Below are positions 1,984 through 18,537 of a stretch of 22,196 nt of DNA, piece by piece. How positions within the stretch are numbered: position 1 is the first letter of the stretch; every line of letters begins with the position of its first letter. The notes under the pieces were generated by a model, which made no database searches, had not been told where the DNA came from, and worked only from the letters and a program-made list of their open reading frames with translations. The stretch comes from a virus: positions 1 to 22,196 of IMG/VR virus record IMGVR_UViG_3300032516_001061; one strand, given 5' to 3'. Position numbers and translations under genes: made by a program.

Positions 1984-2228
1984 GCTTTTGCCTCGACGAG
2001 ATCGATCGTCTCGCCAACGAGTTCCTTGAGTGCGTTGAGCAAGAAGATCTGCTCCTCAATCTTGGTCACCCAGAGTCCCTGCTTCCCGGGGAGCCAGCTG
2101 TTGCCGCCATCGGTCGTGTACCAGCGTCGAAGATTGAGTCCCTCGATCTCGTTGTATACTTCCCGGCTGATCACGAACTTCTCTGATTCTCCAGTTTTCC
2201 TTTCGAACTTCTTCGACTTCGGTGCCAT
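1980..2228 (-). CDS. Hypothetical basic protein, 82 aa; first gene after the 2.3 kb regulatory region
   Basis: ATG 2228 has a good AAAGGAG ribosome binding site. The N-terminus is strongly basic (Lys/Arg-rich, residues 3-18). The middle contains a Trp-rich segment (RRWYTTDGGNSWLPGKQG) and the C-terminus is a hydrophobic helix. It is the first gene after the AT-rich 2229-2451 region, so it probably heads the leftmost transcript. The family is not recognised; the basic N-terminus and small size would suit a nucleic-acid-associated early protein, which is only an inference. Confidence 0.75.
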   Translation of the reverse strand: MAPKSKKFERKTGESEKFVISREVYNEIEGLNLRRWYTTDGGNSWLPGKQGLWVTKIEEQIFLLNALKELVGETIDLVEAKA

Positions 2229-2451: not shown

Positions 2452-3768
2452 TCAATCAACGTGATAGGGGAACGAAGTTACGAAGGTATACGTCGTCACA
2501 TCGTTCCCAGACTTAGCGTATCTCAGCTTGTGAGCTGGGAGCCCGTCCCCTCCCCCATCGTACGTTCCCATGTTCAAGTACTCGATCCCCTTATCTTCGA
2601 GGAGACTGAACAGCACCGACATCATTGCATCCGTAGTCCCTGACTTCCCACCATAGACCGGACTCCCGTCAGGTGCCATCGAGTAGTTCAGGCTCTTTTC
2701 GACGAGAAGTGTAGCAATCTCTGGTCGTCCCGAGAGCCTATCACAGATCACGAAGGATGTCGGGAAGCTCAGATCGAAGTAGCAGGGATCGACTGTCGAA
2801 TTTCCGACCCTAGGATCTTCACGAGTCCCCAGAATCGCGAACGGATAGATCGATAGAGCTTTGATAGCGACTTCGTCTCGTGAGAGTGCGGGCTGACGAT
2901 GCTTATCGTAGTTGAGTCTCTTCCACTCGTTGAGAACTCGAAGCATTCGTGTCGGAGAGTCCTCGAACCAGAATGACGGATCCTGATAGTACTTCGTTTC
3001 ACGCCATGTCTTACGTAGACCGGACCTCTGGTTCTTGCTGAAGATGTCATCGGTGTGAGTATTGACCCATCTGATGTCCACAAGTGCTTGCTTGTGGGGA
3101 TAGACAACTCCTCGTGGATCGAACTCTCTAAATTGACTTAGTCTCTGCGCGGACACGTTTACGATCGAGACCGGTCGAACGCTCCCGGGAGCGATCATTA
3201 TCGCAAGCTTGAGGAGTTCGTTGACGGGAATCACTCCATCATCGAAGATCCTGAATCGGGGTTGATCCTTGAACTTCCTGATGACGATCCCTTGGGCATG
3301 ACCATACCATTCGACGAAGAAGCCCGTATCTCTCGCGAGCTCGTACGACCAGAGATACCCGAAGCTTGCTTCGTGATGCGGTGCTCCAAATCGACAGAAA
3401 TGTTTGTTGACGAGAATGTTGTCATCGACTCCAATCGTCGGGTGATTAATCACCCAATCGAGATGGTTGCGATCCCAGCTAGTCCACTCGCTCACGGAGA
3501 GTTTAGGTTCGCGTTTCACGAACCCCACGATTCGATATGGTTGTCCCCGACCTTTGCGGCCGCCCGTAACCTCGAAGCCCACACTGCGAAGTGAGGCTAC
3601 TGTGTTCATTCGAACGGTCTCTACGTTCGGCGAATCGACCGAACGGTCGATCTTCTTCGCAATGAGCTCCGAAAGTTCGTCCTTCGAAACTCCGCGCAGA
3701 AGAGCTTCGACATATTCGACATCTACGTAGCCGAGTTTTGCAATAGCTTCCGGTGTCATATCGACCAT
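2452..3768 (-). CDS. Predicted FemAB/GNAT-fold acyltransferase-like protein, 438 aa
   Basis: The C-terminal half (about residues 240-425) resembles FemAB and DUF2156-type double-GNAT transferases. It has a basic SKNQRSGLRKTWRE helix near 244-257, a helix ending in a Tyr/Arg-rich segment (280-295), a strand followed by a glycine-rich turn (371-377), a long helix ending EDKGIEYLNMG (391-401), and a terminal GLPAHKLRYA like the family's closing FKxxFG-type motif. Such enzymes use acyl or aminoacyl donors to modify amines. The first 85 residues look like a winged-helix domain and residues 90-235 are unassigned. The start is ATG 3768, with AGGAG 8 bases upstream; a longer frame to 3867 would overlap the previous gene. 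The function here is inference: a role in DNA-base hypermodification is possible but untested. Confidence 0.5.
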   Translation of the reverse strand: MVDMTPEAIAKLGYVDVEYVEALLRGVSKDELSELIAKKIDRSVDSPNVETVRMNTVASLRSVGFEVTGGRKGRGQPYRIVGFVKREPKLSVSEWTSWDRNHLDWVINHPTIGVDDNILVNKHFCRFGAPHHEASFGYLWSYELARDTGFFVEWYGHAQGIVIRKFKDQPRFRIFDDGVIPVNELLKLAIMIAPGSVRPVSIVNVSAQRLSQFREFDPRGVVYPHKQALVDIRWVNTHTDDIFSKNQRSGLRKTWRETKYYQDPSFWFEDSPTRMLRVLNEWKRLNYDKHRQPALSRDEVAIKALSIYPFAILGTREDPRVGNSTVDPCYFDLSFPTSFVICDRLSGRPEIATLLVEKSLNYSMAPDGSPVYGGKSGTTDAMMSVLFSLLEDKGIEYLNMGTYDGGGDGLPAHKLRYAKSGNDVTTYTFVTSFPYHVD

Positions 3769-3779
3769 GAACTTTGCTC

Positions 3780-4106
3780 CTACTTCACGATCTGCACGAG
3801 CTCGAAGATCATCTCGTGACAGTACTCGTATCGTTCCACAACTGGACGAGACTGATTCGGGTGCCACTCGATTTCGACGACTGGCATCTCCCCAGGATTG
3901 TACGATCTCTTGACGGTCCCGAGCGATCCCTTCGGGACTGTGTCGTTCCCGAAGAGACCCATCCTCACGGTCTGACCTACCACGAAGTAAGGCTTCAGAT
4001 CGGGATACCTCGTCTTCGAGTGAAACGGATCCTCACGTCCCCGAATCCCTGCGATTGACCCGACCATCCCTGTGATTGCTCCTACGATCTCAGCTAGTCC
4101 TGACAT
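3780..4106 (-). CDS. Small protein with hydrophobic N-terminus and SH3-like barrel, 108 aa
   Basis: ATG 4106 has a GAAGGG motif 8 bases upstream; the longer TTG start at 4133 has no such signal. Residues 4-21 are Gly/Ile/Val-rich (IVGAITGMVGSIAGI), long enough for a short membrane-associated helix. Residues about 45-105 look like a small beta-barrel of the KOW/SH3 type, with GQTVRMG, a PKGSLGTV turn and a hydrophobic strand before a Trp. The family is not firmly recognised. The start overlaps the preceding gene's stop by 13 bases, and the stop lies 12 bases before the start of the FemAB-like gene. Confidence 0.65.
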   Translation of the reverse strand: MSGLAEIVGAITGMVGSIAGIRGREDPFHSKTRYPDLKPYFVVGQTVRMGLFGNDTVPKGSLGTVKRSYNPGEMPVVEIEWHPNQSRPVVERYEYCHEMIFELVQIVK

Positions 4107-6958: not shown

Positions 6959-9409
6959 CTACTCCTGTAGTTCTCTCTTGAGAGCATCACCCCAGTTACA
7001 GCCAACTTCGATATCCACTCGAAACGGGATGATTGTCGTATCGATTTCTTCGGGGAGATTGATAGCCATCTCGTCTGAGATTAGCTTACAGACTCCCTCG
7101 AGAAGGTCTTCTCTGACCTCGAAGTATAGAGCATCGTGAACCGAGAAGAGGAGATAAGCTCCTTCGGGAAGCTTAGTTACGAGTCTCGTTGCTGCTGTTA
7201 GACAGATATCTGATGCCATACTCTGGATCGGTGTGTTGACTGCCTGTCTTTGGATACCGTAAATCGTGGTTGAATCGCGTAACGGGAACCTCCTTCTTCG
7301 TCCGAAAGGGGTATTAGTATATCCCTCTCGAGCTACAAACATATGTTGCTCCTTGATCCACGCATTCAGACCGGGAAATCCCTTCAAGAACTCATCGATG
7401 AAGATCTCGGACTGCTTAAGTGACCATCGGTCTCCTCCCAGTACCGTAACGTAATGCTCCATCTCCCACCCTTCGGTCAGAGACTTAGCACCTCGACCGT
7501 AGATGATCCCGAAATCAATGTACTTCGCCATGTACCGTTCGAGCTTCGTGATCTCTTCAACGGGCTTTTTGTACATCTTGGAAGCTACGATCTTGTGGAT
7601 ATCCTGATCGGCTTCGTAGGCTTTGATCAGTGTCTCATCTTTCGATAAGTATCCAGCAACACGAAGCTCTAGCTGAGAGTAGTCAGCCCCCACGAAGACA
7701 TAGCCAGGTGGTGCAACAAAGCCTCTGCGTATGTCCTCACCCATCAAGATGGGAATGTTCTGAAGATTAGGCTCATTACAGCTCAAACGTCCTGTCGACG
7801 TCCCGTGAAGAAGGAAGTCCGGGTGAACTCTCCCATCGACAGGGTGAACCTTCTCGAGCAACCCCTCGATATAAGTCGCCTGGATCTTTGACCACTGACG
7901 ATGATCTAGTAACACCGTCAACCACTGAACGACTGTGTCCCTGTCTTCGCGGTTGGACTCTCTCACTTCGCGAACGAGAGCTTGGAGCTCTTCTCGTTCT
8001 GTCGTTCGACCCTCGAGCTCGAGCTCCCCGAAGATGATCTTGTTCACCTGTAACGACGACTTCGGATTGAGATTCTCGATCCCCCAGAGCTTAGCTGTCT
8101 CGATCAAATACTCTTCCCACTCTGCTAATCTGATCGCGACCTCTCCGTGCATCTTCTCGAAATAAGGGATGTCGATCAGGACTCCATGATGTTCGATCTT
8201 TGCGAATGCGAGTGTCCCGGGGACCAATACTCGCTCTACGAGATCGATTAATTTCGGATCCTCATTGCGCAATTCATCTAGGAGCTCGTAGTACAGCCTG
8301 ATGGTGATGTAGCAGTCCTGAGCGTGATACGCCCAGAGTGCCTCCCAGTCTCGTTCGGCATCCGGAACCTTGAACCATTCATCGAACGAGAAGTGATAGT
8401 CAGGTACATCATAGCGAACCCTCGCAATGGACTTCAGACCGTGAGACGCATACCTGTTGTACGGTCTCTCGTCCTGGGCGTACTTCATCAGCATAGTGTC
8501 CATCGGGTTCATGAACTCAGGTTGGAAACCTAGCCACGTCTGAATAAACTTCACATCAAACTTGATGTTGTGAAAGACCATAACGCCGGGATAGAGCTGC
8601 CAGAAGTCCTTCAGGATCATCTTCATATCTGCATGCTGAAGAAGCTCCCTCTTGATGATCACGGAGTAGCCTTTCCCGTCCGTAGTCATAGCTCCGAACC
8701 CCACAGAGATCAGAGTGTCCGAGAGGAAATCGAACCCAGTCGTCTCAAGGTCGCAGGAGATAGCCGTTGTGCTCCAGAGAATCTGGAGCTGATTGATGAT
8801 CTCCTCGATCGACTCTGGCATCACCTCGATGATCTCGAACTCTTCGGGCTCGGACTTCGTAACTGCCTTCTCGATATCCTCGATGAAGTCCCTGAACAGG
8901 TCGGGGTCGCGTAGCACAGCTGAGGGATGGAATGTTGGGACCGTAAACACAGATGTTCGATCATCTGACCCATCTGGAGCGATCTCCATCATGAACCCCT
9001 GTCCACGCCACTTCGTGATTGGGAGTGCCTTCGTGGAAGCTTTCAGAGCCGACAGACCCACTCCCCCGACCGTGATGATCTTGGTCGGATTGACAGCTGC
9101 TATCTCCCTCTGAAGTCTCTCGTTACAATGCATCCATGTCGTCGGGCTGGGTGTCTTATCGTCGACTGGGTGACACAGACAAGCGTTCGTGTACCAGACT
9201 TTCTCGGGATCGATGTTGACGAGCTTCAGGGATTCTCGAAGGAGCTTCCCGGACTTCCCCACGAAGGGCATCTTCTTGATGACCTCAGTGGTCCCAGGAG
9301 CTTCACCGATCACGACGATTCCACCAGGCGTCCCGCTTCCAAAGACTCGTGGTCTCCCAGTCAAGCTGCACTTCAGGCATGCTTCTGGGAGTGAGTCAAA
9401 GTTTTCCAT
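6959..9409 (-). CDS. Family A DNA polymerase with N-terminal uracil-DNA glycosylase domain and 3'-5' exonuclease, 816 aa
   Basis: Residues 1-185 are a family 4-like uracil-DNA glycosylase: GEAPG (35-39), four candidate 4Fe-4S cysteines (11, 14, 79, 95) and HPSAVLR (161-167). Residues 210-385 are a DEDDy exonuclease: CDLETTG (219-225), HNIKFD (280-285) and YHAQDC (361-366). The polymerase domain has motif A VGADYSQLELR (573-583, Asp576), motif B with Lys629 and FGIIYG (633-638), and motif C VHDALYFE (757-764). Motif C has Ala where most PolA enzymes have Glu (HDE); the essential Asp759 remains. ATG 9409 (GAGGTG upstream) is preferred to the TTG at 9424, which has no spaced ribosome site. Its start overlaps the dpdA stop by 14 bases. 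A UDG-like domain on a PolA is also known in phage SPO1. Confidence 0.93.
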   Translation of the reverse strand: MENFDSLPEACLKCSLTGRPRVFGSGTPGGIVVIGEAPGTTEVIKKMPFVGKSGKLLRESLKLVNIDPEKVWYTNACLCHPVDDKTPSPTTWMHCNERLQREIAAVNPTKIITVGGVGLSALKASTKALPITKWRGQGFMMEIAPDGSDDRTSVFTVPTFHPSAVLRDPDLFRDFIEDIEKAVTKSEPEEFEIIEVMPESIEEIINQLQILWSTTAISCDLETTGFDFLSDTLISVGFGAMTTDGKGYSVIIKRELLQHADMKMILKDFWQLYPGVMVFHNIKFDVKFIQTWLGFQPEFMNPMDTMLMKYAQDERPYNRYASHGLKSIARVRYDVPDYHFSFDEWFKVPDAERDWEALWAYHAQDCYITIRLYYELLDELRNEDPKLIDLVERVLVPGTLAFAKIEHHGVLIDIPYFEKMHGEVAIRLAEWEEYLIETAKLWGIENLNPKSSLQVNKIIFGELELEGRTTEREELQALVREVRESNREDRDTVVQWLTVLLDHRQWSKIQATYIEGLLEKVHPVDGRVHPDFLLHGTSTGRLSCNEPNLQNIPILMGEDIRRGFVAPPGYVFVGADYSQLELRVAGYLSKDETLIKAYEADQDIHKIVASKMYKKPVEEITKLERYMAKYIDFGIIYGRGAKSLTEGWEMEHYVTVLGGDRWSLKQSEIFIDEFLKGFPGLNAWIKEQHMFVAREGYTNTPFGRRRRFPLRDSTTIYGIQRQAVNTPIQSMASDICLTAATRLVTKLPEGAYLLFSVHDALYFEVREDLLEGVCKLISDEMAINLPEEIDTTIIPFRVDIEVGCNWGDALKRELQE

Positions 9410-10217
9410 TGTCACCTCGTGCAACCTGCTCGAAGACTCGAACGTTGTGCTGAGCTATCGAGAGATGACCATCACGAATCGGGGAGTTGAAGTAGTCTGG
9501 ATCTCGTCGTGGGTAAGGTGGGATCTCGCCGAAGGCCTCGAGACAGATTCCCCTCATGGCGTAGACCATCGGTTTCGCACTGTCCACTGATCTGATCTTC
9601 GGGAAGTCCCTGGCGATGTCAGCATAGGCCCACAGTGTTCGACCCCATCCCAACATGTGGATATCGGCACCCAGTTCGAGACTCGGGTAGATCATCTTTA
9701 CGATATCGTAGAGACCCCCCTCGAACATCTCGAGATAGTCCTTCGAGATTCCGATGACAGGCTCCTTCGTGAAGACCTCGGGGTAGTCAGCTCGATGACG
9801 AGAGAAGTTGTCGGTCATGCAGCTGTAGCAGTAGTCGTACTCCTCTCTCGTCTTCCCTTGAGGTACGAGCATCAGCCTCGGGTTGAGATCCCTGAACGTG
9901 TTGTACCCCATTGACGAGAAGTACGATAACGCCTCGTCGGTCAGCTTGCAGGTCCCCTCGACCGAGAAGAGCTCGTCCGGGCAGACGATTTCGGAGGCTC
10001 CGATGAGCTGTGCCTGCTTGAGGAGGATCTTCCCCGGTTGACCCAACTGGAACTCGTGAGCCGAGTTGTCCAAGATGACGTAGGCACCTCGAGTGGCTTC
10101 TCTGCGATAGTGAGTGAAGTACCTTGCATCCGACAGTAGATGTGACAGCACGAGATGCATCGGGCCCGTCCCAAAGACCTTGAGATCCGGGATCGAGGGA
10201 ATTAGAATGGTCTGCAT
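9396..10217 (-). CDS. dpdA: DpdA: DNA 7-deazaguanine transglycosylase, TGT-family, 273 aa
   Basis: DpdA proteins are relatives of tRNA-guanine transglycosylase that exchange guanine in DNA for a 7-deazaguanine. This protein shows the family landmarks: VILDNSAHE (48-55, Asp50, equivalent to the TGT pocket Asp), EIVCPDE (76-82), VIGISKDYLE (154-163), ADIHMLGWG (184-192) and IRSVDSAKP (208-216), whose Asp212 matches the TGT nucleophile. The length suits short phage DpdA proteins, and the C-terminal tRNA-binding zinc site of TGT is absent. The start ATG 10217 has AGGAG 7 bases upstream; a longer frame to 10331 overlaps another gene and is rejected. The gene overlaps the polymerase start, coupling base exchange with replication. 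The queC, yhhQ and queF genes at 14.3-17.2 kb support the call. Confidence 0.85.
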   Translation of the reverse strand: MQTILIPSIPDLKVFGTGPMHLVLSHLLSDARYFTHYRREATRGAYVILDNSAHEFQLGQPGKILLKQAQLIGASEIVCPDELFSVEGTCKLTDEALSYFSSMGYNTFRDLNPRLMLVPQGKTREEYDYCYSCMTDNFSRHRADYPEVFTKEPVIGISKDYLEMFEGGLYDIVKMIYPSLELGADIHMLGWGRTLWAYADIARDFPKIRSVDSAKPMVYAMRGICLEAFGEIPPYPRRDPDYFNSPIRDGHLSIAQHNVRVFEQVARGDNGKL

Positions 10218-10227
10218 TGATATTCTC

Positions 10228-10419
10228 CTACGTAAAGTTGGATACGCCTCGCTTGAGTCGTGCTTGTCTGAGGATTGCGAGTTCTTCTTCAGCATCTTCT
10301 CGATCAGAGCACGGGAGAAGCATCCCATCACCGATCACGTACCAGCCGTCATCGAGTCTCAGAGTTCTCAGCTCCCCGTTTGTGTCGATCGTGACGCCAT
10401 CACTGAACTTCAGTGTCAT
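10228..10419 (-). CDS. Hypothetical protein, 63 aa
   Basis: ATG 10419 has AGGAG 7 bases upstream. A longer frame to 10620 is an out-of-frame shadow of the zinc-ribbon gene. The N-terminal half is beta-rich (TLKFSDGVTIDTNGELRTLR, then DDGWYVIGDG); the second half is a charged helix, EDAEEELAILRQARL. The fold could be a small beta-sheet with a C-terminal helix, but I do not recognise the family. Its stop lies 10 bases before the dpdA start, so it is probably in the same transcript; a role as a DpdA accessory is possible but unsupported. Confidence 0.75.
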   Translation of the reverse strand: MTLKFSDGVTIDTNGELRTLRLDDGWYVIGDGMLLPCSDREDAEEELAILRQARLKRGVSNFT

Positions 10420-10705
10420 CTTCGGGCTCCTCTTCAGGCTCGTCCTCGACGAGCTCCCCTGATTTTGTTCGCCAGGCTTCGATTGATTCCATCGGACCGA
10501 CTCCACATTCAGGGCAGCTCGTGTCGGAAAGCTTCGAGGAGAACCTCCGACAGTTCGGGCACTGATGACCATCCCCCGAGTAGCTTCCTGACCGATTGAA
10601 GATCTCTCCGCAGACTCCACAGTCGTAGAGAGGGTCTTGGTCGGGTTCTTCTACGATCACTTCACATGCATCACACTGATACGCATTGACCTTCTCAGCA
10701 GACAT
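10400..10705 (-). CDS. Multiple zinc-ribbon protein, 101 aa
   Basis: Eight cysteines form four CxxC knuckles: 11/14, 29/32, 49/52 and 64/67. They should build two zinc ribbons, in the contexts YDCGVCGE, HQCPNCRR and TSCPECGVG. The C-terminus is acidic (residues 85-101). Such proteins commonly contact nucleic acids or RNA polymerase. ATG 10705 is preceded by an AGGGGG purine block that overlaps the previous gene's stop. It lies between two other Cys-rich proteins and dpdA; nothing in the sequence reveals its partner. Confidence 0.85.
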   Translation of the reverse strand: MSAEKVNAYQCDACEVIVEEPDQDPLYDCGVCGEIFNRSGSYSGDGHQCPNCRRFSSKLSDTSCPECGVGPMESIEAWRTKSGELVEDEPEEEPEDDTEVQ

Positions 10706-10706
10706 A

Positions 10707-10931
10707 TCATCCCCCTTTCAGAACACATTCGTTGCATTCTTGATACACACCCCAAGAGTCAGCTCCCGAAGCCCTTTCACAGAGAGACCATCTGGGCCCA
10801 ATCGTGATGATCTTCCCACAGATCGTCTTCTTCCCGTCGTAGGAACCGTGCACAGGTCCCGTGAAATACCTTCGATGTGTAGTCTTCCACGGGAGAGTCT
10901 GTCGTCGTGCTAGGTACTTCGCTCTGAGCAT
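10707..10931 (-). CDS. Small Cys/His-rich protein, 74 aa
   Basis: ATG 10931 follows a strong GGAGGGG motif that overlaps the preceding gene's stop. Cys38, Cys51, Cys66 and Cys69 (QECNEC) form a likely zinc site, with His19 and His28 nearby. The N-terminal 25 residues are basic and aromatic (RAKYLARRQ, HRRYFTG). The spacing CG(x12)C(x14)CxxC resembles small phage zinc proteins of unknown role. It is the second gene of the transcript starting at the 11.7 kb promoter. No function is assigned. Confidence 0.75.
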   Translation of the reverse strand: MLRAKYLARRQTLPWKTTHRRYFTGPVHGSYDGKKTICGKIITIGPRWSLCERASGADSWGVYQECNECVLKGG

Positions 10932-10934
10932 AGA

Positions 10935-11630
10935 CTATCCCCTCCAGACTTCTGAGAATGGGCCAACCGGGACTAACCCCGACTTCATGTAGGTGAATTC
11001 TCTCAGCAGCTCCGGGATCATCGTTCGGATCTTCAAGTACTCAGCCCACATGAGATACCGCTCGAAGATCCCGATCAGTTCATCGAGATCAGACGAGTCA
11101 AACGTCTTCGTGAAATCACACTGTGTCTTCTCGGGGTACCTCCAGGCTCGTGCGAACAGCTGCTTCGAGATCGATGTCAAGTTCGAGCTCTCTCTCAGCC
11201 TGATATGAACGATCGGAGCCGCATGACATTCGAGCGGATTGTTCGGCCAGACTGTACACCCAGGATTGCCGTCTGAGACAGTCTTCATCAGCGGGCAGGG
11301 ATCTTCGAGTGATCTGAACTTGTCGGTGAGTGTATGGATCTCGAACTTCTGGGAGTTCACGTCAACGAATCGAGGGTAGAAGAGAGTTCGAGGGATGTCC
11401 CACGTCAGGTTGTCGAACTCTTGAGGGATATAGTCCAGTGTCAGTTGGAAGAGACAGCACGACCGACATCCACGAATGCAGGTGAATTTCCGAAAGACGG
11501 AAGCTCCGACTCCAACTGCTTCGGTCCCCATCCCAACGATCTTCCCGTTCCACCTCGTCAGGTCAGGACTCAGTCGGGCGAGTCTCGTGACGGTCCTTTC
11601 GACAGTGTCTGCTACTACGACTGATGACAT
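10935..11630 (-). CDS. YkgJ-like cysteine-cluster protein, 231 aa
   Basis: The protein carries the signature of the YkgJ family (putative zinc or iron-sulfur cluster): CIRGCRSCC (Cys51, 55, 58, 59), then DPCPLM (Cys112), GCTVW (Cys125) and PLECHAAP (Cys135). The biochemical role of the family is not established. The C-terminal 80 residues are helical. ATG 11630 (AGGGG upstream) is preferred to a longer start within the promoter region. It is the first gene of the transcript that leads to dpdA and the polymerase, so a redox or radical role linked to base modification is tempting; the sequence does not show one. The start lies 49 bases downstream of the -10 box. Confidence 0.75.
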   Translation of the reverse strand: MSSVVVADTVERTVTRLARLSPDLTRWNGKIVGMGTEAVGVGASVFRKFTCIRGCRSCCLFQLTLDYIPQEFDNLTWDIPRTLFYPRFVDVNSQKFEIHTLTDKFRSLEDPCPLMKTVSDGNPGCTVWPNNPLECHAAPIVHIRLRESSNLTSISKQLFARAWRYPEKTQCDFTKTFDSSDLDELIGIFERYLMWAEYLKIRTMIPELLREFTYMKSGLVPVGPFSEVWRG

Positions 11631-11678
11631 TCTTATCCCCTTCCCTATTATATTATAATATAGAACCATGCTGGATAT

Positions 11679-11707
11679 ATTATAGGGAGATTAGAAAACT
11701 ATCTCAA
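11679..11707 (-). promoter_or_regulatory. Sigma-70-like promoter (TTGAGA, 17 bp, TATAAT)
   Basis: The minus strand has TTGAGA at 11707-11702 and a perfect TATAAT at 11684-11679, with an exact 17-base spacer; 11 of 12 bases match consensus. The -35 box lies inside the last codons of the upstream exonuclease gene. One GATTAG element (11689-11694 on the plus strand) falls in the spacer. Further TATAAT-like sequence follows downstream (about 11647-11660). It should drive the YkgJ-like gene, dpdA, polymerase and primase. Confidence 0.75.
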
Positions 11708-12442
11708 ATCAGCAGGGATCCAAGCAGTAAAGTCTTCTGGGTTCGACGGAGTCGAGATCCACCCTTCGGCAGGTGCCCACTTTCGGGAGTAGAGTGACCC
11801 GACCGACCACTGAATCGGATCATGTTTGATCACATCGGGGAGCTTGAAGTCGAGGAGCTTACCGGACTTCGAAGCCCACTGAAACCCTCCCGTGTTCAGA
11901 AGATGTTTGAAGACAGTTACGGTTGCAACAGAGTCCTGGATCTGGTAGCTGAGAACATCTTGGACGTGACCCGAGAACCAGAGCGAAGGTGCGAGAGCTC
12001 CATTCTCGATTCCGCCCCCACCCTTGAATGTCCCACATCCCTGTGCGGCCGCGGAGAGACCCAATCGATGACGACGAACACTGGCGAACAGTACCATCAA
12101 ATCCACATGTGAAGTACTCATCGCAAGCTTAGCGGCTCGGGTGATGTCTTCGGCTTCGACCCCTAAGACATATAGATCGAAGGCGAGGGAGTTCCACCCT
12201 ACGATTAGCTCGCCACGAGCGGCGATCCCCTCGAGAGTTGAGAGGAGGGCTCTCGCACCGTTCATCGAGAGCTTCGGACCATAGGGTCCCGCAGTCGGTA
12301 GTTTCCTGCCGTAGAAGAGTAGGACTTCATCGTCAGAACCGACAAGAGCTGCACAAGCAATCCCCAATCGATCCTTCGGACTCAGGGTGTCTCCCGTATC
12401 AGTCTTGGCGATCTCCAGATCGAACCCCCAGCTATATGTCAC
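11699..12442 (-). CDS. DnaQ/RNase H-like 3'-5' exonuclease, DEDDy type, 247 aa
   Basis: Three exonuclease motifs are readable: Exo I WGFDLE (Asp8, Glu10), Exo II GWNSLAFDL (Asp89) and Exo III SYQIQDS (Tyr166, Asp170), the DEDDy pattern. Asp114 in HVDLMVLF may also belong to the site. The family degrades or proofreads nucleic acids. The polymerase in this window already has its own DEDDy domain, so this separate enzyme probably has another job, such as degrading host DNA or processing ends. The GTG start at 12442 overlaps the HNH gene's stop as GTGA, with AGGAG about 10 bases upstream. The last 55 residues are Trp-rich and unassigned. Confidence 0.8.
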   Translation of the reverse strand: MTYSWGFDLEIAKTDTGDTLSPKDRLGIACAALVGSDDEVLLFYGRKLPTAGPYGPKLSMNGARALLSTLEGIAARGELIVGWNSLAFDLYVLGVEAEDITRAAKLAMSTSHVDLMVLFASVRRHRLGLSAAAQGCGTFKGGGGIENGALAPSLWFSGHVQDVLSYQIQDSVATVTVFKHLLNTGGFQWASKSGKLLDFKLPDVIKHDPIQWSVGSLYSRKWAPAEGWISTPSNPEDFTAWIPADLR

Positions 12443-12942
12443 GACTTCGTCTCCTCACGTCTTCGACGATTGGTCTCTCTCTGCTTTTCAATAGATTCGG
12501 GTGATCGTGTCTTCCCGAGATGACTCTGTCGGGCACGATCACGAAGTTCACGAGCTCGAGCTTCGCCATAGATTTCCTCGAAGGTCTTCCCGAGTCGTGA
12601 TGATCCTTCGAGACGTTTTCGTTTCCAGGTTCGACTTCTCTTTTCGATGGATTCACGAGGTTCGGGTTTTCCGAGATGAGCTTTACTGAGCTTCTCCGAT
12701 CGAATTCTCCCGATGTCGAACTGTGCATTAATCAAGTTGTGAAGCTTCTGATGACACGACGGGCAAACTACGATCCCGTTACCGACGTCAAAAGTAGCTT
12801 CGGGACGATCCCGAATCGGGATTACATGATGTACGACTCGGGCTGGGACTCTGCATTTAGTACAGATGCAATCATCTCTCTTTCGAACTGCAGCTTGCCA
12901 CGTCATAAGCTCTACAGTGTATCCCGGTTGTCCTTGGGTCAT
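12439..12942 (-). CDS. HNH homing-type endonuclease with NUMOD3 repeats, 167 aa
   Basis: Residues 14-70 form an HNH nuclease: CTKC (27-30), HHVIPIRDRPE (38-48), NGIVVCPSCH (55-64) and LH (67-68). The active His-Asn-His are about 39, 55 and 64, and four cysteines bind structural zinc. The basic C-terminus repeats LGKxxxxESIEK twice (about 90 and 145), a NUMOD3-like DNA-binding motif typical of phage homing endonucleases. The gene is joined to both neighbours by 4-base overlaps (ATGA and GTGA), a clean cassette insertion. It is clearly related to the HNH gene at 16045-16749, which suggests spread within this genome. Confidence 0.9.
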   Translation of the reverse strand: MTQGQPGYTVELMTWQAAVRKRDDCICTKCRVPARVVHHVIPIRDRPEATFDVGNGIVVCPSCHQKLHNLINAQFDIGRIRSEKLSKAHLGKPEPRESIEKRSRTWKRKRLEGSSRLGKTFEEIYGEARARELRDRARQSHLGKTRSPESIEKQRETNRRRREETKS

Positions 12943-13157
12943 TCTTTCTTCTCAACTTTCATCACGGTAAGTTCGATCCACGACGTAGTTATTGGTACGT
13001 TGTACTCAACACCGAGCTTCTTCGCGAGTTCACTGGCTTGAGCTTCGTCAACGATAACGCACATTCCCCCCTCTCGACTCTCTCTCAACGTCCCGTCAGC
13101 TTGAAGTTCTGGCTCTTTCGGATTCAGAAACTTTACGTCGAAGATATACCCGATCAT
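12939..13157 (-). CDS. Hypothetical protein, 72 aa
   Basis: This is a complete frame from ATG 13157, overlapping the preceding stop as ATGA. It reads as a compact alpha/beta protein: an N-terminal strand (MIGYIFDVKFLNP), a Gly-rich turn, a helix (DEAQASELAKKLG) and a final strand (SWIELTVMKVEKK). No motif gives a function and I do not recognise the family. The next gene is the HNH endonuclease, which starts inside this gene's stop codon, so the HNH insertion probably took over its downstream junction. Confidence 0.7.
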   Translation of the reverse strand: MIGYIFDVKFLNPKEPELQADGTLRESREGGMCVIVDEAQASELAKKLGVEYNVPITTSWIELTVMKVEKKE

Positions 13158-13354
13158 TCGCTGAACCAGTCGATTCTCTCAAGGTAGACGGGTCCGGGAA
13201 ACGTCTGTTTTGTTGAGACAACGACGTGACCTGGTCTTGCTCGTCTCTGGAGCTTCTTGATCGCCTTATTCATCTCGTCACGGGTGTACGGCTTACCGGA
13301 TTCGAGGATCCCGCCCGGACCGACGAGCATTGTGTTCTTACGTTTCTTTGTCAT
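13154..13354 (-). CDS. Hypothetical basic protein, 66 aa
   Basis: ATG 13354 has GAGGG 7 bases upstream and overlaps the preceding gene by 17 bases. The protein is Lys/Arg-rich (N-terminus MTKKRKN; middle AIKKLQRRARPGHVVV), with a Gly-Pro turn in between. It could bind nucleic acid, but no fold is recognised. It is one of three small genes downstream of the LuxR-type regulator. Confidence 0.65.
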   Translation of the reverse strand: MTKKRKNTMLVGPGGILESGKPYTRDEMNKAIKKLQRRARPGHVVVSTKQTFPGPVYLERIDWFSE

Positions 13355-13625
13355 CGAGCCACCCTCGCTCTCTTCGAAACTCGAGACCTAGATACTTTTT
13401 GTGTCGGAGTGGGAACTCGCACCCAAGACTTCGAGCAAGATTTTCGGCGAATGTCCAGTCAGGGACTCTAGACATCAGAACGAGATCCGGGAGTGAGAAG
13501 ACTTCTGTCTTCTGCGAACAGAGAAGCCCGAACGTGCACGAGATTCGAATCTGAGTTCCATCATCGAGCTCGAAGTCTCCGGATGATCCCTCGATGCCGT
13601 GGGACTCCCCGATCAGTTTACTCAT
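13338..13625 (-). CDS. Hypothetical protein, 95 aa
   Basis: This is a complete frame from ATG 13625; only a weak GGA-type ribosome site is visible upstream. The first 35 residues look beta-rich (DFELDDGTQIRISCTFG). A later Trp-containing segment (WTFAENLARSLGCEF) is helical and the C-terminus is charged. The family is unknown. The 100-base gap in front of it holds a nested hairpin (13660-13698), which may influence its expression or end the luxR transcript. Confidence 0.65.
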   Translation of the reverse strand: MSKLIGESHGIEGSSGDFELDDGTQIRISCTFGLLCSQKTEVFSLPDLVLMSRVPDWTFAENLARSLGCEFPLRHKKYLGLEFRRERGWLDDKET

Positions 13626-13659
13626 GCTTCACATCCGTTGGTTTCATTCTCACCTCAGT

Positions 13660-13698
13660 GGAGCTGCTGGGTCTCGCACCCAGTGCCCCCATTGCTCC
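13660..13698 (-). other. Nested inverted repeat in the gap after the LuxR-type gene
   Basis: The inner stem ctgggt/acccag (13667-13672 and 13678-13683) has a 5-base loop; an outer stem ggagc/gctcc (13660-13664 and 13694-13698) can enclose it. There is no T tract, so it is not a standard rho-independent terminator. It occupies most of the 100-base untranslated gap between two genes and would form in the mRNA before the 13338-13625 gene. Confidence 0.45.
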
Positions 13699-13725
13699 CC
13701 AAGATCTGATGTTGGGATGCTTGGT

Positions 13726-13977
13726 TCAGCCCCTTGAATCTTTCGTCTTGCGATGGTATACCGATAGATCGAGCTCTTCAAGATTGATGATCCCATTTCG
13801 AAGAGCTGTACAGACTGCTTGTGTTCGGGACTGTGTATCGAGCTTCTCGTAGATTTGAGTGATATAATTCTTCGTCGTCTGATAGGAGATTCCCAGTGTC
13901 CGACTAATCTCCTTGTTACAAGCTCCCTGTATCATCAGTCGGAGAACTGACAGTTCACGAGGTGTGAGTTTACACAT
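13726..13977 (-). CDS. Stand-alone LuxR/GerE-type HTH protein, 83 aa
   Basis: Residues 3-62 match the LuxR/NarL C-terminal DNA-binding domain: LTPRELSVLRLMIQG, then NKEISRTLGISYQTTKNYI (recognition helix) and YEKLDTQSRTQAV. No receiver or ligand-binding domain precedes it, because the protein starts two residues before the domain. Such short LuxR-HTH proteins occur in phages and probably act as constitutive regulators. ATG 13977 has AGGTG 6 bases upstream. It lies just after the 363-base non-coding stretch, a possible site of autoregulation. Its targets might include the GATTAG iterons; that is inference. Confidence 0.88.
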   Translation of the reverse strand: MCKLTPRELSVLRLMIQGACNKEISRTLGISYQTTKNYITQIYEKLDTQSRTQAVCTALRNGIINLEELDLSVYHRKTKDSRG

Positions 13978-14340
13978 ATCAGCACCTGATCGAAGTCGAA
14001 GTGAGTGCTCACTCTCAGAATCGAACTGATAGGGAGCCCCACTCCTCGTAAGCAGAGCTCCCTTTCTGACATGACCAAATTCAGTCTGGTTGGAAACGTT
14101 CTCGAACTCAATACGACCTGGAACTTTGAGAACCGGCTATCCGCTCCCGATTCCCTTTTTCACATCACGTCTTTCGATATTGGGTTGTCTACTTCTCTGA
14201 GTTGAATCGAGGAGCGCCTCCTTATTGACGATTAGCTCTCTAAGCGTCTACAGTCGTTCCCGAGGTCCGAACGGTTCCGACTCCGATCTCTTCTTCGGGG
14301 AGTATAAGCCAGAGATCGTCACGACGAAGAGAGCTTTCAA
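13978..14340 (-). other. 363-base stretch without a leftward gene
   Basis: No leftward frame here has both a start signal and a plausible protein. Rightward frames of 66 and 70 codons begin at GTG or TTG without ribosome sites and look random. The stretch holds several inverted repeats: agggagc/gctccct (14031-14037, 14057-14063), gtgagtgctcac (14001-14012) and gttctc/gagaac (14098-14103, 14128-14133). Near 13999-14052 the minus strand can fold into a T-loop hairpin (TTCGATT) next to a 6-bp acceptor-like stem, but a normal cloverleaf does not form. No strong promoter pair was found. It may encode a structured RNA or be a decayed gene. Confidence 0.5.
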
Positions 14341-15012
14341 TTATAGACTCGGATCGTCGGCCCCGTTCTGTCTGAAGGCCTCGATTCGCTCCACGCACGT
14401 TGGGCAGAGTCTACAGGGCTTTGCTCCACCTTCGTAACACGACCACGAGAGCCCGAAGGGAGCCCCGATCTCGAACCCGAGCTTGACGACTTCCTTCTTC
14501 ATCATCCACTGAAACGGGCTGATGAGTCGAACAGCTCGATAAGTCCCGACCCAGATCGCAGCAGCCATCGATCCTGTGAATTCTGGCGAACAGTCAGGGT
14601 AGGCCCAGTGAGCAGCATCGTCTGCATGAACGGCTATTGCGACTTCGCTGTAGTTGTTCTCGAGAGCGTAGACTGTTGCGAGTGAGAGAAACGTCCCGTT
14701 CCGATACGGGACCACTGTCGGAGATGGCCCCTGCTGATGAGCAAGCTCCTGATACGTCTCGTGCGGCATGGGGATCTCGTCCATGAGAGCGGACCCGGCA
14801 CCCCGAAAGAGATCAGGTGGGAGTCGCATGATCGTGTGATCGAGAAGGTTGAAGTGACGAGCTACCTTCGCAGCAGCCTGAAGCTCCTTCTCGTGCTTCT
14901 GCCCATACCAGAATGAGATCGCACCGACCTGTCTCGGGCTCGAATCGTGGATCATCTTCGATAGGAGAACGGTAGAGTCGAGACCTCCCGAGAGGAGGAC
15001 CAGCGTACTCAT
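14341..15012 (-). CDS. queC: QueC: 7-cyano-7-deazaguanine (preQ0) synthase, 223 aa
   Basis: QueC converts 7-carboxy-7-deazaguanine with ATP and ammonia to preQ0. The PP-loop SGGLDST (8-14) binds ATP and the C-terminal zinc site is Cys192, Cys200, Cys203 and Cys206 (CYEGGAKPCRLCPTC), as in known QueC proteins. SFWYGQKHEKE (33-43) and VPYRNGTFLS match the family, and the length is normal. There is no fused amidotransferase domain of the Gat-QueC type. ATG 15012 overlaps the yhhQ stop as ATGA. The product would feed QueF and DpdA. Its substrate enzyme QueE, and QueD and FolE, are not in the window. Confidence 0.95.
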   Translation of the reverse strand: MSTLVLLSGGLDSTVLLSKMIHDSSPRQVGAISFWYGQKHEKELQAAAKVARHFNLLDHTIMRLPPDLFRGAGSALMDEIPMPHETYQELAHQQGPSPTVVPYRNGTFLSLATVYALENNYSEVAIAVHADDAAHWAYPDCSPEFTGSMAAAIWVGTYRAVRLISPFQWMMKKEVVKLGFEIGAPFGLSWSCYEGGAKPCRLCPTCVERIEAFRQNGADDPSL

Positions 15013-15722
15013 TGAGCTAGCCCCGCCTCAGTCTTCGTCACGTCAGGTTCGGTCTCGAGCTTGAACGGGTTGTAGTTCAAGCCGTAATCGTACGTATCGA
15101 TCCCTTCGACTTTCTTCCACCATGTGATGACGGCGTAGGTGATCGGCGTGACGATCACTTCGTAGAGGGTCTTGAACAGTGCTCCCGAGTAGATCATTAC
15201 CGGGATGACTGTCCAAGGCACGACTCCTGCGAACCCGAGGATCACGAAGACTGTAGTGTCGACCGTCTCCCCGACGAGGGTAGAACCGATCGTACGCGTC
15301 CACAGGTATCGTCCCTTCGTCCAGATCTTCATCGACGACAGGGTTCGGGCATTCGCGAACTGTCCGCACCAGACGCCGAACATCGATGCGACTACGATCC
15401 TGGGAACGGGTGCTAGGACGTTGTGGAATTGCTCTGCGAACACGGGGTTCACGGGCGAGAGCTTATCCGTGATCCAGTAGACGACCACCATGAGGATGTT
15501 CGCAGCGATGCCCACCCAGATGATGCGCCTCGCTCCGGAGTAGCCGTAGACTTCAGTCAAGACGTCCCCGAGGATGTAGCTGATCGGGAACAGGATGACT
15601 GCACCAGCGAACACGAACGACCCGAAGAAGGCCAGGCGTGCTGCGATCGTGTTCGACAGTACGAGAATGACCGCGAACATGGCCATCGCGTACGGGTACA
15701 GCTTGTAGTTGTTGTACTTCAT
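15009..15722 (-). CDS. yhhQ: YhhQ-family queuosine-precursor transporter, 237 aa
   Basis: YhhQ (COG1738, DUF165/VUT family) is a membrane protein that imports preQ0 or preQ1 in bacteria. The diagnostic segment is FPISYILGDVLTEVYGYSGA (45-64), followed by RRIIWVG. About six hydrophobic helices are visible, e.g. around 12-30, 33-50, 66-84 and 160-180, and the C-terminus is charged and cytoplasmic-looking. The gene sits between the QueF-like paralogue and queC, with ATGA coupling to queC. The start at ATG 15722 has GAGGGGG about 11 bases upstream. A phage-borne copy would enlarge the precursor supply during infection. The exact substrate is inferred from context. Confidence 0.92.
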   Translation of the reverse strand: MKYNNYKLYPYAMAMFAVILVLSNTIAARLAFFGSFVFAGAVILFPISYILGDVLTEVYGYSGARRIIWVGIAANILMVVVYWITDKLSPVNPVFAEQFHNVLAPVPRIVVASMFGVWCGQFANARTLSSMKIWTKGRYLWTRTIGSTLVGETVDTTVFVILGFAGVVPWTVIPVMIYSGALFKTLYEVIVTPITYAVITWWKKVEGIDTYDYGLNYNPFKLETEPDVTKTEAGLAQ

Positions 15723-15727
15723 GGCGG

Positions 15728-16063
15728 CTAGAACCCCCTCGAGATCTGCTGGGTTGCTGGGCCGTGTGCGATCGTCATTCCCCCGAGGGTGACGCGAAGA
15801 TCGACCATACCGACGAGCTCGGTCATCTTATCGAAGATGATCCGACACATCTCCTCGCCGGTGTGCGTCCCTTTCAAACTCTCTCCTTGGAGCCATGTCT
15901 CAAACGTCATGAACTCGATCAACGTCGCGGCGGGTCTGTACTCGATCAGGACCTTCCCGATGTAGGGCCCGCCGAGACAAAGCCCTTGGAACGACGGTTC
16001 GAAGATTATTCGAGTAACCTTCGCATCGTTTGACAACACTTCTACTACAACATCCGGATCCAT
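15728..16063 (-). CDS. QueF-family T-fold paralogue, 111 aa, catalytic Asp missing
   Basis: This short protein aligns by eye with the QueF core: QGLCLGGPYIGKVLIEYRP (26-44) matches SLCPxxxQPDxGTVxIxYxP, LIEFMTFETWL (48-58) matches xIESKSLKLYL, and GEEMCRIIFDKM (69-80) matches the following helix. Cys29 sits at the thioimide cysteine position and Glu71 may match the substrate Glu, but the catalytic Asp is replaced by Tyr34 and the NADPH motif ESKS is lost. It lacks the HGH zinc motif, so it is not QueD. It could be an amidinotransferase-like QueF-L relative, a partner subunit for QueF, or a new preQ0-modifying enzyme. GGAG 7 bases before ATG 16063 lies inside the HNH gene's 3' end. Confidence 0.7.
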   Translation of the reverse strand: MDPDVVVEVLSNDAKVTRIIFEPSFQGLCLGGPYIGKVLIEYRPAATLIEFMTFETWLQGESLKGTHTGEEMCRIIFDKMTELVGMVDLRVTLGGMTIAHGPATQQISRGF

Positions 16064-16749
16064 TCTATATCTCCATTCACAGTTCCGGGACTTTCATTCC
16101 GGTTGCGTTCTTCACGCTTACGTCGTAGAGTTTCCTTCTGTCTTGCAATCGACTCAGGAGATTTAGGCTTCCCGAGAAGAGCCTTACCAATCTTTGCTTT
16201 GACCTCCTTTGCTCGATCTTCTCCGAAGTACTCTTCGTGAGTCTTCCCGGACTTCGGGTGAACATACTCTCCCGAGTCCATCTTACGCTGCCAAGCCGCT
16301 CTCAGATTCTCGACGAATCCAGAAGGTCGTTTCAGCCCGAGATGACTCTGTCGACCTTTCTCGATCGACTCAGGTGATCGACTCTTCCCGAGATTTCCCC
16401 GTCGGATCTTCTCTCGAGTCTCCTGGGAGGGAGTTCGATTGACACCTGTGTCGAATTGAGCTTCGATCATAGCATGAAGAAGTCGATGACATCGATAGCA
16501 TACGATCGTTCCGTTATTTACGTCGAATCTTTCTTCAGGACGATCCCGAACAGGAATAATATGGTGTACGAGAACCGACGGAGCTCCACACTCCGTACAG
16601 AAGTCTCCGTCACGCCCCCGAACAGCTGCACGCCACTGCTGAAGTTTCGTGTCGTATCGTCGGACTCCCTCCCGACGATCCCGGCGAAGATCATCAGCAC
16701 GGTCTTTCCCACAGTACTCATCCCAAGTCGGTCCCTTTGGACATCCCAC
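16045..16749 (-). CDS. HNH homing-type endonuclease with NUMOD3 repeats, 234 aa (GTG start)
   Basis: The HNH core lies at about residues 35-95: CTEC (51-54), HHIIPVRDRPE (62-72), NNGTIVCYRCH (78-88), and His92. LGKxxxPESI motifs of the NUMOD3 type recur after residue 115 and near the C-terminus, and the segment GKTHEEYFGEDRAKE (about 168-182) is echoed at the N-terminus by PTWDEYCGKDRADD. It is a relative of the 12439-12942 endonuclease, longer by an N-terminal extension and an extra repeat block. The GTG start at 16749 has AGGAG 8 bases upstream. It lies between queF and the QueF-like paralogue and overlaps the latter by 19 bases, so it appears to be a selfish insertion that kept the operon readable. 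Confidence 0.9.
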   Translation of the reverse strand: MGCPKGPTWDEYCGKDRADDLRRDRREGVRRYDTKLQQWRAAVRGRDGDFCTECGAPSVLVHHIIPVRDRPEERFDVNNGTIVCYRCHRLLHAMIEAQFDTGVNRTPSQETREKIRRGNLGKSRSPESIEKGRQSHLGLKRPSGFVENLRAAWQRKMDSGEYVHPKSGKTHEEYFGEDRAKEVKAKIGKALLGKPKSPESIARQKETLRRKREERNRNESPGTVNGDIEWIRML

Positions 16750-16754
16750 TTGAT

Positions 16755-17213
16755 TTACTCCTGCTCGGGATATTCGTATGATGCTGTGATCGAGATCCCA
16801 CCTCGTGGTTGTTGTGTCACGATCACGACGAGGTGTTCCGGATCGATATCTGCGATAACACGATCAGCAACGATCTTTGGGAGCTTCTCGCAGAACGATC
16901 CGGTATTCCGGAATCTCTGCAAGTACAACTTCAACGATTTTGATTCAATCCCGAGCTTCTTCGGAACGTACTGAATCGTGACGGTGCCGAAATCAGGCTG
17001 CGACGTGATGGGGCAAAGTGACGTGAATTCGAGGGCTTCGAGCTGAACTTGGACTCGATCGAGAAGAGGGAAGGTATCAAGCTTCTCGACGACTCCTCGA
17101 ACGGTCTTTCCCAGAACTGTGAACTCTTGTGACTCCTGCGACACTTCAGCTTCCTCCCAGACGAAGAGAGGGAGTTGAACCATCCGGAGCAGTTGATTCA
17201 ACTCCCTGTTCAT
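16755..17213 (-). CDS. queF: QueF: NADPH-dependent preQ0 reductase, type I, 152 aa
   Basis: QueF reduces the nitrile of preQ0 to the aminomethyl group of preQ1. The catalytic motif EFTSLCPITSQPDFG (62-76) holds the thioimide Cys67 and Asp74; the NADPH-binding motif ESKSLKLYL is at 90-98; PRGGISI (136-142) ends the fold. Glu109 matches the substrate-binding Glu97 of the Bacillus enzyme, but the neighbouring His96 is Cys108 here, a variant I believe also occurs in some bacterial QueF proteins. The single T-fold domain and length are those of type I enzymes. ATG 17213 follows the previous stop by one base, with a weak GAAG signal. It implies that the modified base in DNA is preQ1-type rather than preQ0. 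Confidence 0.95.
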   Translation of the reverse strand: MNRELNQLLRMVQLPLFVWEEAEVSQESQEFTVLGKTVRGVVEKLDTFPLLDRVQVQLEALEFTSLCPITSQPDFGTVTIQYVPKKLGIESKSLKLYLQRFRNTGSFCEKLPKIVADRVIADIDPEHLVVIVTQQPRGGISITASYEYPEQE

Positions 17214-17214
17214 G

Positions 17215-17694
17215 CTACTTCAGTCCCGAGATCTTCGGGGCAGTCGTCGCGGCAGGTGCTTTCCCTCCCAAGGTATTCCCGAGGGTCGGTTTTGAGGTTA
17301 CCTTCTCGATCGGGAGAAGGTCCGTGACACGATTCCTCTGGACGCCCTGGTACTCTTCCTGATCGACGACAGCGAGTGCGACCCTTCCGACGAACTCAGG
17401 CTCGATCAGAGTCCCGTCGTCTTCCGCTTTGAAGTCCAAGCTGTCCTGGAACATGCCGAACTTCTCGAGCAGGGACCTGAGAAACCAGAGAGACTTCGGG
17501 GCCAAGCTGGTGTTCATGAACAGACGACGTTCCGAGAACTCTCCCTCAGTCACGTCGAGGGCCCAGCTCAGCCTCATGTTCGAAGACGATGCAGACTGGA
17601 GCATCTGCACCGATGCCACCACGATCGGGTACCGTCCCGCAGGCAGCGGCTCCATCGACGGTACGTCCGAGAAGTTGATGTTCAGTTGTTTCAT
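17215..17694 (-). CDS. DUF669-like ssDNA-binding protein, 159 aa
   Basis: The sequence resembles DUF669, a phage single-stranded DNA-binding protein family encoded beside Sak4-type recombinases. Residues 17-60 (PLPAGRYPIVVASVQM ... MRLSWALDVTEGEF) form an OB-like beta segment, followed by a helix with WFLRSLLEKFG (70-80) and a strand ending VGRVALAVVDQEEYQG. The last 30 residues are Thr/Ala/Pro/Lys-rich, a typical flexible SSB tail. ATG 17694 overlaps the recombinase stop as ATGA, with AGGAG upstream. It should coat ssDNA during phage recombination and replication. Confidence 0.75.
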   Translation of the reverse strand: MKQLNINFSDVPSMEPLPAGRYPIVVASVQMLQSASSSNMRLSWALDVTEGEFSERRLFMNTSLAPKSLWFLRSLLEKFGMFQDSLDFKAEDDGTLIEPEFVGRVALAVVDQEEYQGVQRNRVTDLLPIEKVTSKPTLGNTLGGKAPAATTAPKISGLK

Positions 17695-18485
17695 TGAGTC
17701 TCCTGTTCAGATTTCACGGCTTCCAAGCCGGGCAAGTAGTCTCCGGGGACAGGGAGCTCTGGTTCAGCCTCTTCGGGGGCTTCACTAACCCCGAGGACAT
17801 CGAAGAGCTTCGTGATCGTCGGATCTATGATATCGTTCGGGATCTCGACACCCCAAGGAGTTCGAACTTTCGTCCGGATCTTCGGATAGTTCCTGAGGAC
17901 GAGGATCCTGTGGACTCCGTCATCAGCTTCAGCTAGCCCGAGATAGGATACGACTGACATCATGCCAGGGACTTCTTCAGCTAATGTCCCTGAGAGCGCT
18001 GGCTTGATGATCATCCCCTCTCTCGGCTCGAGCTCTGTCTTCGAGAGACCTGTGATGATCACGTGCATTGGGAGATCCCTGAATGCACGGATCAATCGTC
18101 TGATCTGCACCGATGCCCTGTTATAGTCCTGGAGCTGGAGCAGATCTGGATCTTGACGTTCTTTGACTTCGATCTCGAGGAACTTGAATAGAGCGAAGAC
18201 ATGAGTCTCCGTGATGGAGTCTACCCCTACGCTCTTGTAGCCATGCCCGGGAGCCGAGAGGTAGGCGTACACCTCGTTGTAGTCTTTCCAGTCCCGAACA
18301 CGAACCACATCGATATCAAGTCCTGCGAGTGTCTGATCACCTCCTTCGAAGTTCACGAACAGCATGGGGTACGTCCTCGGATCCTGCTGTGCGGTTCCGA
18401 GAAAGTGAGTCTTGCCATGCCCTGAAGGAGCATAGATCAAGATCTTCTGGTGCAGTGCCACTGTTGGTTTGTAGACTTCGACCAC
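17691..18485 (-). CDS. Sak4-like RecA-type ATPase, 264 aa (GTG start)
   Basis: The protein has a Walker A YAPSGHGKTHF (18-28), a Walker B KSVGVDSIT (84-92, Asp89), and the order of strands and helices of the RecA core; LRNYPKIRTKVRTPWG near residue 200 and an acidic Pro-rich C-terminus complete it. This matches the Sak4/AAA_24 single-strand annealing recombinases of phages, which act with DUF669-type SSB proteins. The SSB follows immediately here, with an ATGA overlap, which supports the call. The GTG start has AAGGAGG 8 bases upstream and lies 24 bases after the -10 box of the 18.5 kb promoter. Confidence 0.88.
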   Translation of the reverse strand: MVEVYKPTVALHQKILIYAPSGHGKTHFLGTAQQDPRTYPMLFVNFEGGDQTLAGLDIDVVRVRDWKDYNEVYAYLSAPGHGYKSVGVDSITETHVFALFKFLEIEVKERQDPDLLQLQDYNRASVQIRRLIRAFRDLPMHVIITGLSKTELEPREGMIIKPALSGTLAEEVPGMMSVVSYLGLAEADDGVHRILVLRNYPKIRTKVRTPWGVEIPNDIIDPTITKLFDVLGVSEAPEEAEPELPVPGDYLPGLEAVKSEQETQ

Positions 18486-18508: not shown

Positions 18509-18537
18509 ATTATAAGGTCCCCAGATGCTAAATTCAA
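18509..18537 (-). promoter_or_regulatory. Sigma-70-like promoter (TTGAAT, 17 bp, TATAAT)
   Basis: The minus strand has TTGAAT at 18537-18532 and a perfect TATAAT at 18514-18509, with a 17-base spacer. Two GATTAG units 11 bases apart lie about 10 bases upstream of the -35 box. It should drive the recombinase, SSB, queF, T-fold, yhhQ and queC genes. The leader is very short, with the AAGGAGG site only about 10 bases after the -10 box. Confidence 0.7.

Follow-up and report, generated by a model that had tools for sequence, protein, structure and literature searches.

A virus that carries the late genes of 7-deazaguanine metabolism and lacks the early ones raises the question of where its modified base would come from. 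This question is posed by the IMG/VR record IMGVR_UViG_3300032516_001061, a 22.2 kb viral fragment that was analyzed in its entirety (22,196 nucleotides; hereafter the window). All of its recognizable genes lie on the minus strand, and they include queF, queC, yhhQ, a QueF-like gene and a divergent dpdA. We consider it likely, with a probability of roughly 0.68, that this cassette swaps guanine in the phage's own DNA for a 7-deazaguanine at the level of 7-aminomethyl-7-deazaguanine (preQ1), obtained from a salvaged precursor and then probably methylated, and that the modified DNA would block restriction enzymes. The functions assigned to all genes below are inferred from homology and neighborhood.

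A divergent DpdA is encoded with QueF, QueC and YhhQ

The 273-residue product of positions 9396–10217 has no match among Pfam or NCBIfam profiles. Its AlphaFold2 model, built from 13 relatives, has high confidence scores (pLDDT 91.7, pTM 0.90), and all 50 of the best PDB matches listed for it are tRNA-guanine transglycosylases (TGTs; E about 1e-6 to 3e-5). The best viral structural match is a protein of Cellulophaga phage phiST (Foldseek E 1.3e-14, template modeling score 0.79), with Vibrio nt-1 and Mufasa8 proteins further down. The first-pass annotation of this DNA had called the gene dpdA and had proposed a structure search as one way to refute that call; the search came out TGT-like, in favor of the assignment. 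Residues D50, N51 and D212 are invariant in an alignment of 11 sequences, which includes those of immuto (annotated as DpdA), Youna2 and CP220, and D50 and D212 resemble, in position and motif, the catalytic pair of aspartates in TGT. A direct search of named phages with the window DpdA found no homologue, and the window DNA likewise has no match among named phages; the named relatives were reached only via other members of the clade, two of which (L011 and L014) match phiST/CP220/immuto-type proteins at E 1e-7 to 1e-12. DpdA1-type enzymes (9g/Dp-1) are not matched by the window DpdA (hhalign probabilities of 2.5% and 16%). The window clade has a signature of its own, LDNSAHEF plus IRS.DSAKP, and its split in the tree from the phiST/CP220/immuto DpdAs is weak (51/96). 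The phiST/CP220/immuto DpdAs are reportedly the DpdA3 of Cui et al. (2023), with near-complete guanine replacement, a name that may extend to the window DpdA.

The profile scores of three other products agree with the earlier assignment of queF, yhhQ and queC. QueF (16755–17213), a preQ0 (7-cyano-7-deazaguanine) nitrile reductase, scores 110.3 bits against TIGR03139, the type II preQ1 synthase profile (cut-off 86.9), and 72.5 bits against PF14489 (cut-off 27.3). It keeps C67, D74, the NADPH motif ESKS.K (E90, S91, K92 and K95) and E109, all of which are invariant in the phage QueF alignment. QueC (14341–15012), the 7-cyano-7-deazaguanine synthase, whose start overlaps the yhhQ stop, scores 171.9 bits against PF06508 and 148.7 bits against TIGR00364, 1.6 below the cut-off of 150.3; it carries the P-loop SGGLDS and SCYEGGAKPCRLCPTC, so that both the P-loop and the four zinc cysteines are present. 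YhhQ (15009–15722), a queuosine-precursor transporter, scores 100.1 bits against TIGR00697 (cut-off 50.95) and 164 bits against PF02592. It was also observed that most of the aligned phage QueFs, the window's included, have Cys, Ala, Gly or Ile in place of the histidine adjoining the substrate-binding glutamate.

Early pathway genes are exchanged for a transporter

Among the enzymes for making preQ0 (FolE, QueD, QueE and QueC), only QueC is found in the window. Profile searches of the 22.2 kb gave no match to FolE, QueD or QueE, as the first-pass annotation had claimed, nor to any radical S-adenosylmethionine (SAM) protein. Searches seeded with DpdA led to 15 viral relatives and to L035, a phage contig assigned to a Methanothrix genome bin, which was searched whole for QueF homologues; L044, represented by a 16.6 kb stretch of its 53.2 kb contig, and L049 were reached through YhhQ. 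Several of these relatives are fragments like the window. In the window and in L002, L007 and L035, folE, queD and queE are missing and a VUT-family transporter (yhhQ) is present. De novo genes and transporter never occur together in the DpdA clade: PF02592 was found only in L002 and L007, both of which are without PF01242 and PF01227, and L035 is alike. Because the window is a fragment, the absence of folE, queD and queE from the whole virus rests on these relatives. The 53.8 kb record of L007 gave no match to FolE, QueD or any radical-SAM protein; its two ends lie in queC and queF, which adjoin each other in L002, and L007 is therefore probably a near-complete, permuted genome. The VUT protein of L007 is shorter than and more distant from that of the window, suggesting that a transporter was acquired more than once. 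Further reduction is evident in L044 and L049, which carry QueF or the QueF-like protein together with YhhQ and DpdA, without QueC or QueD.

Judged from gene content, loss of the first three pathway steps alongside a transporter is a repeated pattern. These results support the earlier suggestion that the early steps are left to the host or to import. Published group 3 phages also lack a full preQ0 set (PMC6884629), so this lack does not disqualify the window as a modification system. It should be added that L035 (JAUCQD010000187.1), a close relative of the window virus and the single match in the genome collection, comes from a Methanothrix metagenome bin, which could reflect either an archaeal host or mis-binning.

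An eight-cysteine protein accompanies QueF and DpdA

The product of 10935–11630, a PF03692/FliB-YkgJ-like protein, has a CX3CX2CC cluster and eight invariant cysteines. Its gene is found in the window and in L002 (two copies), L004, L006, L008, L015, L035 and L049/L050, either beside DpdA or inside the array. Five of the seven clade proteins match PF03692 at E up to 1, the best at 2e-5. In Cellulophaga phage phi38:2, Mycobacterium phage Knocker and Pseudanabaena phage Pan1, a homologue is encoded next to QueF and DpdA (E 2.5e-25 to 2.6e-31). The protein thus adjoins QueF/DpdA in four phage groups, spanning two DpdA types. A homologue in Vibrio phage VH7D (8e-27) has no QueF or DpdA neighbors within the stretch examined, and phage Funsized, whose cassette is much like that of Knocker, is without the protein.

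The base preQ1 bears a primary amine. FliB, the flagellin lysine methylase, is a [4Fe-4S] SAM-dependent N-methylase of lysine amines with an N-terminal CX4CX3CC-type cluster and eight conserved cysteines (PMC8598068). The eight-cysteine protein is likened to it through this published description: the clusters are similar and both have eight conserved cysteines, whereas FliB acts on a protein and its spacing differs from CX3CX2CC. Since FliB-type proteins methylate amines and preQ1 offers one, methylation of preQ1 is predicted, and by this analogy the eight-cysteine protein is a candidate that probably methylates the preQ1 amine, free or in DNA. Methylated preQ1 deoxynucleoside (dPreQ1) and a methylase of unusual fold, DpdM, have reportedly been described in phages by Cui et al. 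(2023). The eight-cysteine family (e.g., phi38:2 gp53) may be DpdM, which we take as a lead. The first-pass annotation had predicted dPreQ1 or a derivative of it. Its preQ1 level is retained here; it had overlooked the eight-cysteine gene, which lies between the two halves of the system and probably alters the product.

A remote QueF homologue lies beside the transporter gene

Directly upstream of yhhQ, positions 15728–16063 encode a 111-residue T-fold protein without the NADPH motif. It scores weakly against QueF profiles (E 0.043–0.18; TIGR03139 13.7 bits, cut-off 86.9) and aligns with phage QueFs at hhalign E 6e-5 and 65% probability; other members of its family match PF14489 at E up to 2e-5. 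A direct search with this protein in viral contigs and named phages gave no match. On these alignments its homology to QueF is genuine but distant and extends to the fold only. In the window, L043, L044 and L046, the family has kept a cysteine at the nucleophile position, two glutamates and a C-terminal histidine, and has lost the aspartate, the NADPH motif (ESKS) and PRGG. The L035 copy has lost the cysteine too and is still clearly QueF-derived (96% probability). All five genes are located directly upstream of yhhQ, and by its sequence features and position the protein is a member of a small undescribed T-fold family. In L035 (57.9 kb; whole bin) and L044 (53.2 kb; within the 16.6 kb stretch), no QueF homologue besides this protein was found, and neither viral contig has QueC, though YhhQ and DpdA are present.

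The earlier label "QueF-like" is therefore apt as to remote homology and misleading if taken to mean a second QueF, as the reductase residues are lost. We also considered whether the gene is a decayed queD, since QueD holds that place in relatives; this was rejected (hhalign probability 0.5% to QueD versus 65% to QueF). A recent duplication of the window queF is not favored, the protein grouping with those of L043, L044 and L046 apart from the QueFs (99/97) on long branches. The archaeosine synthase QueF-L has a QueF fold that lacks the NADPH motif and retains the catalytic cysteine and aspartate. The QueF-like protein departs from this: the cysteine is kept, whereas the place of the aspartate is taken by an aromatic residue or a deletion. 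Sequence alone does not readily separate QueF from QueF-L (Hutinet et al. 2019, PMC6884629). Because the cysteine is not universal in the family, our favored guess is a carrier or a partner of the transporter. A more elaborate version, which we hold to be rather unlikely, is that the protein founds a T-fold family cooperating with YhhQ, whose cysteine and glutamate would capture imported preQ0 or preQ1, as a carrier or through NADPH-free nitrile chemistry, and pass it to DpdA. In L046, a single reading frame (1916–3016) joins the QueF-like domain to a class I SAM methyltransferase-like domain (named by eye), and the fused gene adjoins yhhQ and a DpdA1-type gene.

Proposed mechanism and alternative explanations

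In the order of steps that we propose, the virus would no longer build the base from guanosine triphosphate. It would take 7-carboxy-7-deazaguanine (CDG) or preQ0 from the host, with QueC converting CDG to preQ0, and/or import preQ0 or preQ1 by YhhQ. QueF would reduce preQ0 to preQ1, and DpdA would exchange guanine in DNA for the base. The eight-cysteine protein would probably methylate the aminomethyl group, either on the free base or in DNA, to give 7-(methylamino)methyl-7-deazaguanine, and DNA so modified would resist restriction enzymes. The predicted base, by analogy with FliB, is N-methyl-dPreQ1 rather than plain dPreQ1. The profile matches and the TGT fold support the earlier reading of DpdA, QueC, QueF and YhhQ as a 7-deazaguanine DNA system with a preQ1-level product.

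Several observations weigh against this proposal. The position of QueF His96 (presumably B. subtilis numbering) is a cysteine in the window, as in other phage QueFs. YhhQ reaches only 28.2 bits against NF008406, the equivalog of E. coli-type preQ0/preQ1 transporters (cut-off 252). Retention of QueC would be redundant if preQ0 entered through YhhQ; either host CDG is used, or the transporter imports something upstream of preQ0. The window eight-cysteine protein scores 14.3 bits against PF03692, below the curated cut-off of 23, and neither a sequence search of the PDB nor a fold search with its AlphaFold2 model (pLDDT 73) gave a match. Moreover, DpdA and QueF occur without the eight-cysteine gene in L007, as well as in L009, L010, L011 and L013. 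This last distribution would be expected if the product were plain dPreQ1, as measured in HVTV-1 and in Dp-1, which has DpdA and QueF (PMC6884629), with the eight-cysteine protein serving otherwise, for example in metal delivery or redox help. We regard this as possible though doubtful: the gene accompanies QueF/DpdA cassettes in phages that are not related to one another, and primary amines are what FliB-type proteins methylate (PMC8598068).

Two further explanations dispute that the cassette serves DNA modification at all, or that it still does. QueC, QueF and YhhQ also belong to queuosine supply for tRNA, and Hutinet et al. raised a tRNA role for phages without DpdA (PMC6884629), so the genes might serve only to boost the queuosine precursors available for the host's tRNA, with tRNA also the substrate of the TGT-like protein. 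This is very improbable given that a DpdA homologue is present, that dpdA and the replicative polymerase gene overlap, and that some of the relatives are phages with 7-deazaguanine DNA or an annotated DpdA. Least probable of all is a cassette on its way out. The loss of folE, queD and queE could be read as decay, together with the QueF copy without catalytic residues and the HNH/NUMOD3 endonuclease gene (16045–16749; PF01844 29.6 bits, above cut-off) inserted as a passenger between queF and the QueF-like gene. All genes are nevertheless intact, their spacing is tight or overlapping, and similarly reduced cassettes with yhhQ are seen in L002, L007, L035, L044 and L049.

Gene order and neighboring genes

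Upstream of queF, the window encodes a DUF669/ssDNA-binding-like protein (17215–17694; PHROG ssDNA-binding matches) and an AAA/phage P-loop ATPase (17691–18485; TIGR01618 E 4e-10), both conserved neighbors by synteny. A fusion of uracil-DNA-glycosylase (UDG)-like domain, exonuclease and family A DNA polymerase (6959–9424) overlaps the 3′ end of dpdA. The order AAA-DUF669-QueF-QueD-QueE-FolE-QueC-DpdA is found in L004, L008, L009, L010 and L013, and in L006 with the eight-cysteine gene moved upstream. The UDG-polymerase follows DpdA in all of these except L008, whose contig ends soon past DpdA. L015 keeps the order from AAA to DpdA, where its contig is cut, and in L011 these genes are present in a different order; the order QueF-QueD-QueE-FolE-QueC is found in seven relatives. 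In relatives the polymerase gene lies directly after or close behind dpdA, and a related layout, DpdA then polymerase, is seen in Weizmannia phage Youna2. From this shared synteny, the positions of the polymerase beside DpdA and of the recombination genes beside the base-supply genes are ancestral and not specific to the window. The first-pass description of a "split" system is thereby weakened, as relatives carry the same genes in one contiguous same-strand array. Its two transcripts remain a guess: the two best promoter-like sites fit, being sigma-70-like matches by consensus only on the minus strand (11/12 at 11679–11707, before the eight-cysteine gene; 10/12 at 18509–18537, before the AAA gene), but the seven sites in the window are no excess over shuffled sequences (mean 5.1, standard deviation 2.3).

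Some other features were observed. The UDG-like/exonuclease/polymerase fusion recurs in L002, L004, L007, L035 and L044. The window holds two related HNH endonuclease genes, one at 12439–12942 and the passenger described above, the latter with a NUMOD3-like motif. An 83-residue LuxR/GerE-type DNA-binding protein is encoded just downstream of queC (13726–13977), and a 471-residue protein (2452–3867) has two adjacent homologues in L035 (19–867 and 997–2148). In L011, the QueE frame (1457–3064) carries an in-frame intein-like insert within the radical-SAM cysteine motif (CNLRCDFC ... VVHN CDTAY).

Relation to known systems and implications

Hutinet et al. (2019) list phages that have DpdA, incomplete pathways and homologues of YhhQ, and in phage CAjan deletion of dpdA abolishes both modification and protection (PMC6884629). 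The first-pass annotation had referred to preQ1 as a base known in halovirus DNA; it is not confined to haloviruses, dPreQ1 of Streptococcus phage Dp-1 being already published (PMC6884629). Like the window, Dp-1 has QueF, QueC, DpdA and a queuosine-precursor transporter (QueT), with a preQ1-level product (PMC6884629). Unlike the window, it has FolE, QueD and QueE, a DpdA1-type enzyme of no usable sequence similarity to the window DpdA, and no eight-cysteine gene within the stretch examined. The DpdAs of Cellulophaga phiST, Campylobacter CP220 and Flavobacterium immuto are related to that of the window by a chain of sequences and by fold, whereas the window clade is set apart by its own signature and by an operon, conserved among its members, that includes UDG-PolA. 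In phi38:2, Knocker and Pan1, QueF, DpdA and the eight-cysteine protein are encoded side by side as in the window; these phages differ in keeping FolE, QueD and QueC (QueE is annotated in phi38:2 and Knocker), in having DpdA1-like enzymes, and in showing no YhhQ match within the stretches examined. A phage with DpdA and QueF carrying dPreQ1, as in Dp-1, is an already known kind, and the window fits it. As far as can be told, what is new is the exchange of pathway genes for a transporter in one syntenic clade, the DpdA clade itself, the association of the eight-cysteine protein across phage groups, and the QueF-like/YhhQ pair.

The conserved gene order makes visible a phage lineage that appears to be shifting from base synthesis to scavenging, three pathway genes having been swapped for a transporter. 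As a candidate for a second step that modifies preQ1 in DNA, the eight-cysteine protein can be put to the test, and the QueF-like protein represents what seems to be a new small family tied to the transporter. Both may bear on how phages broaden their range of restriction-proof bases.

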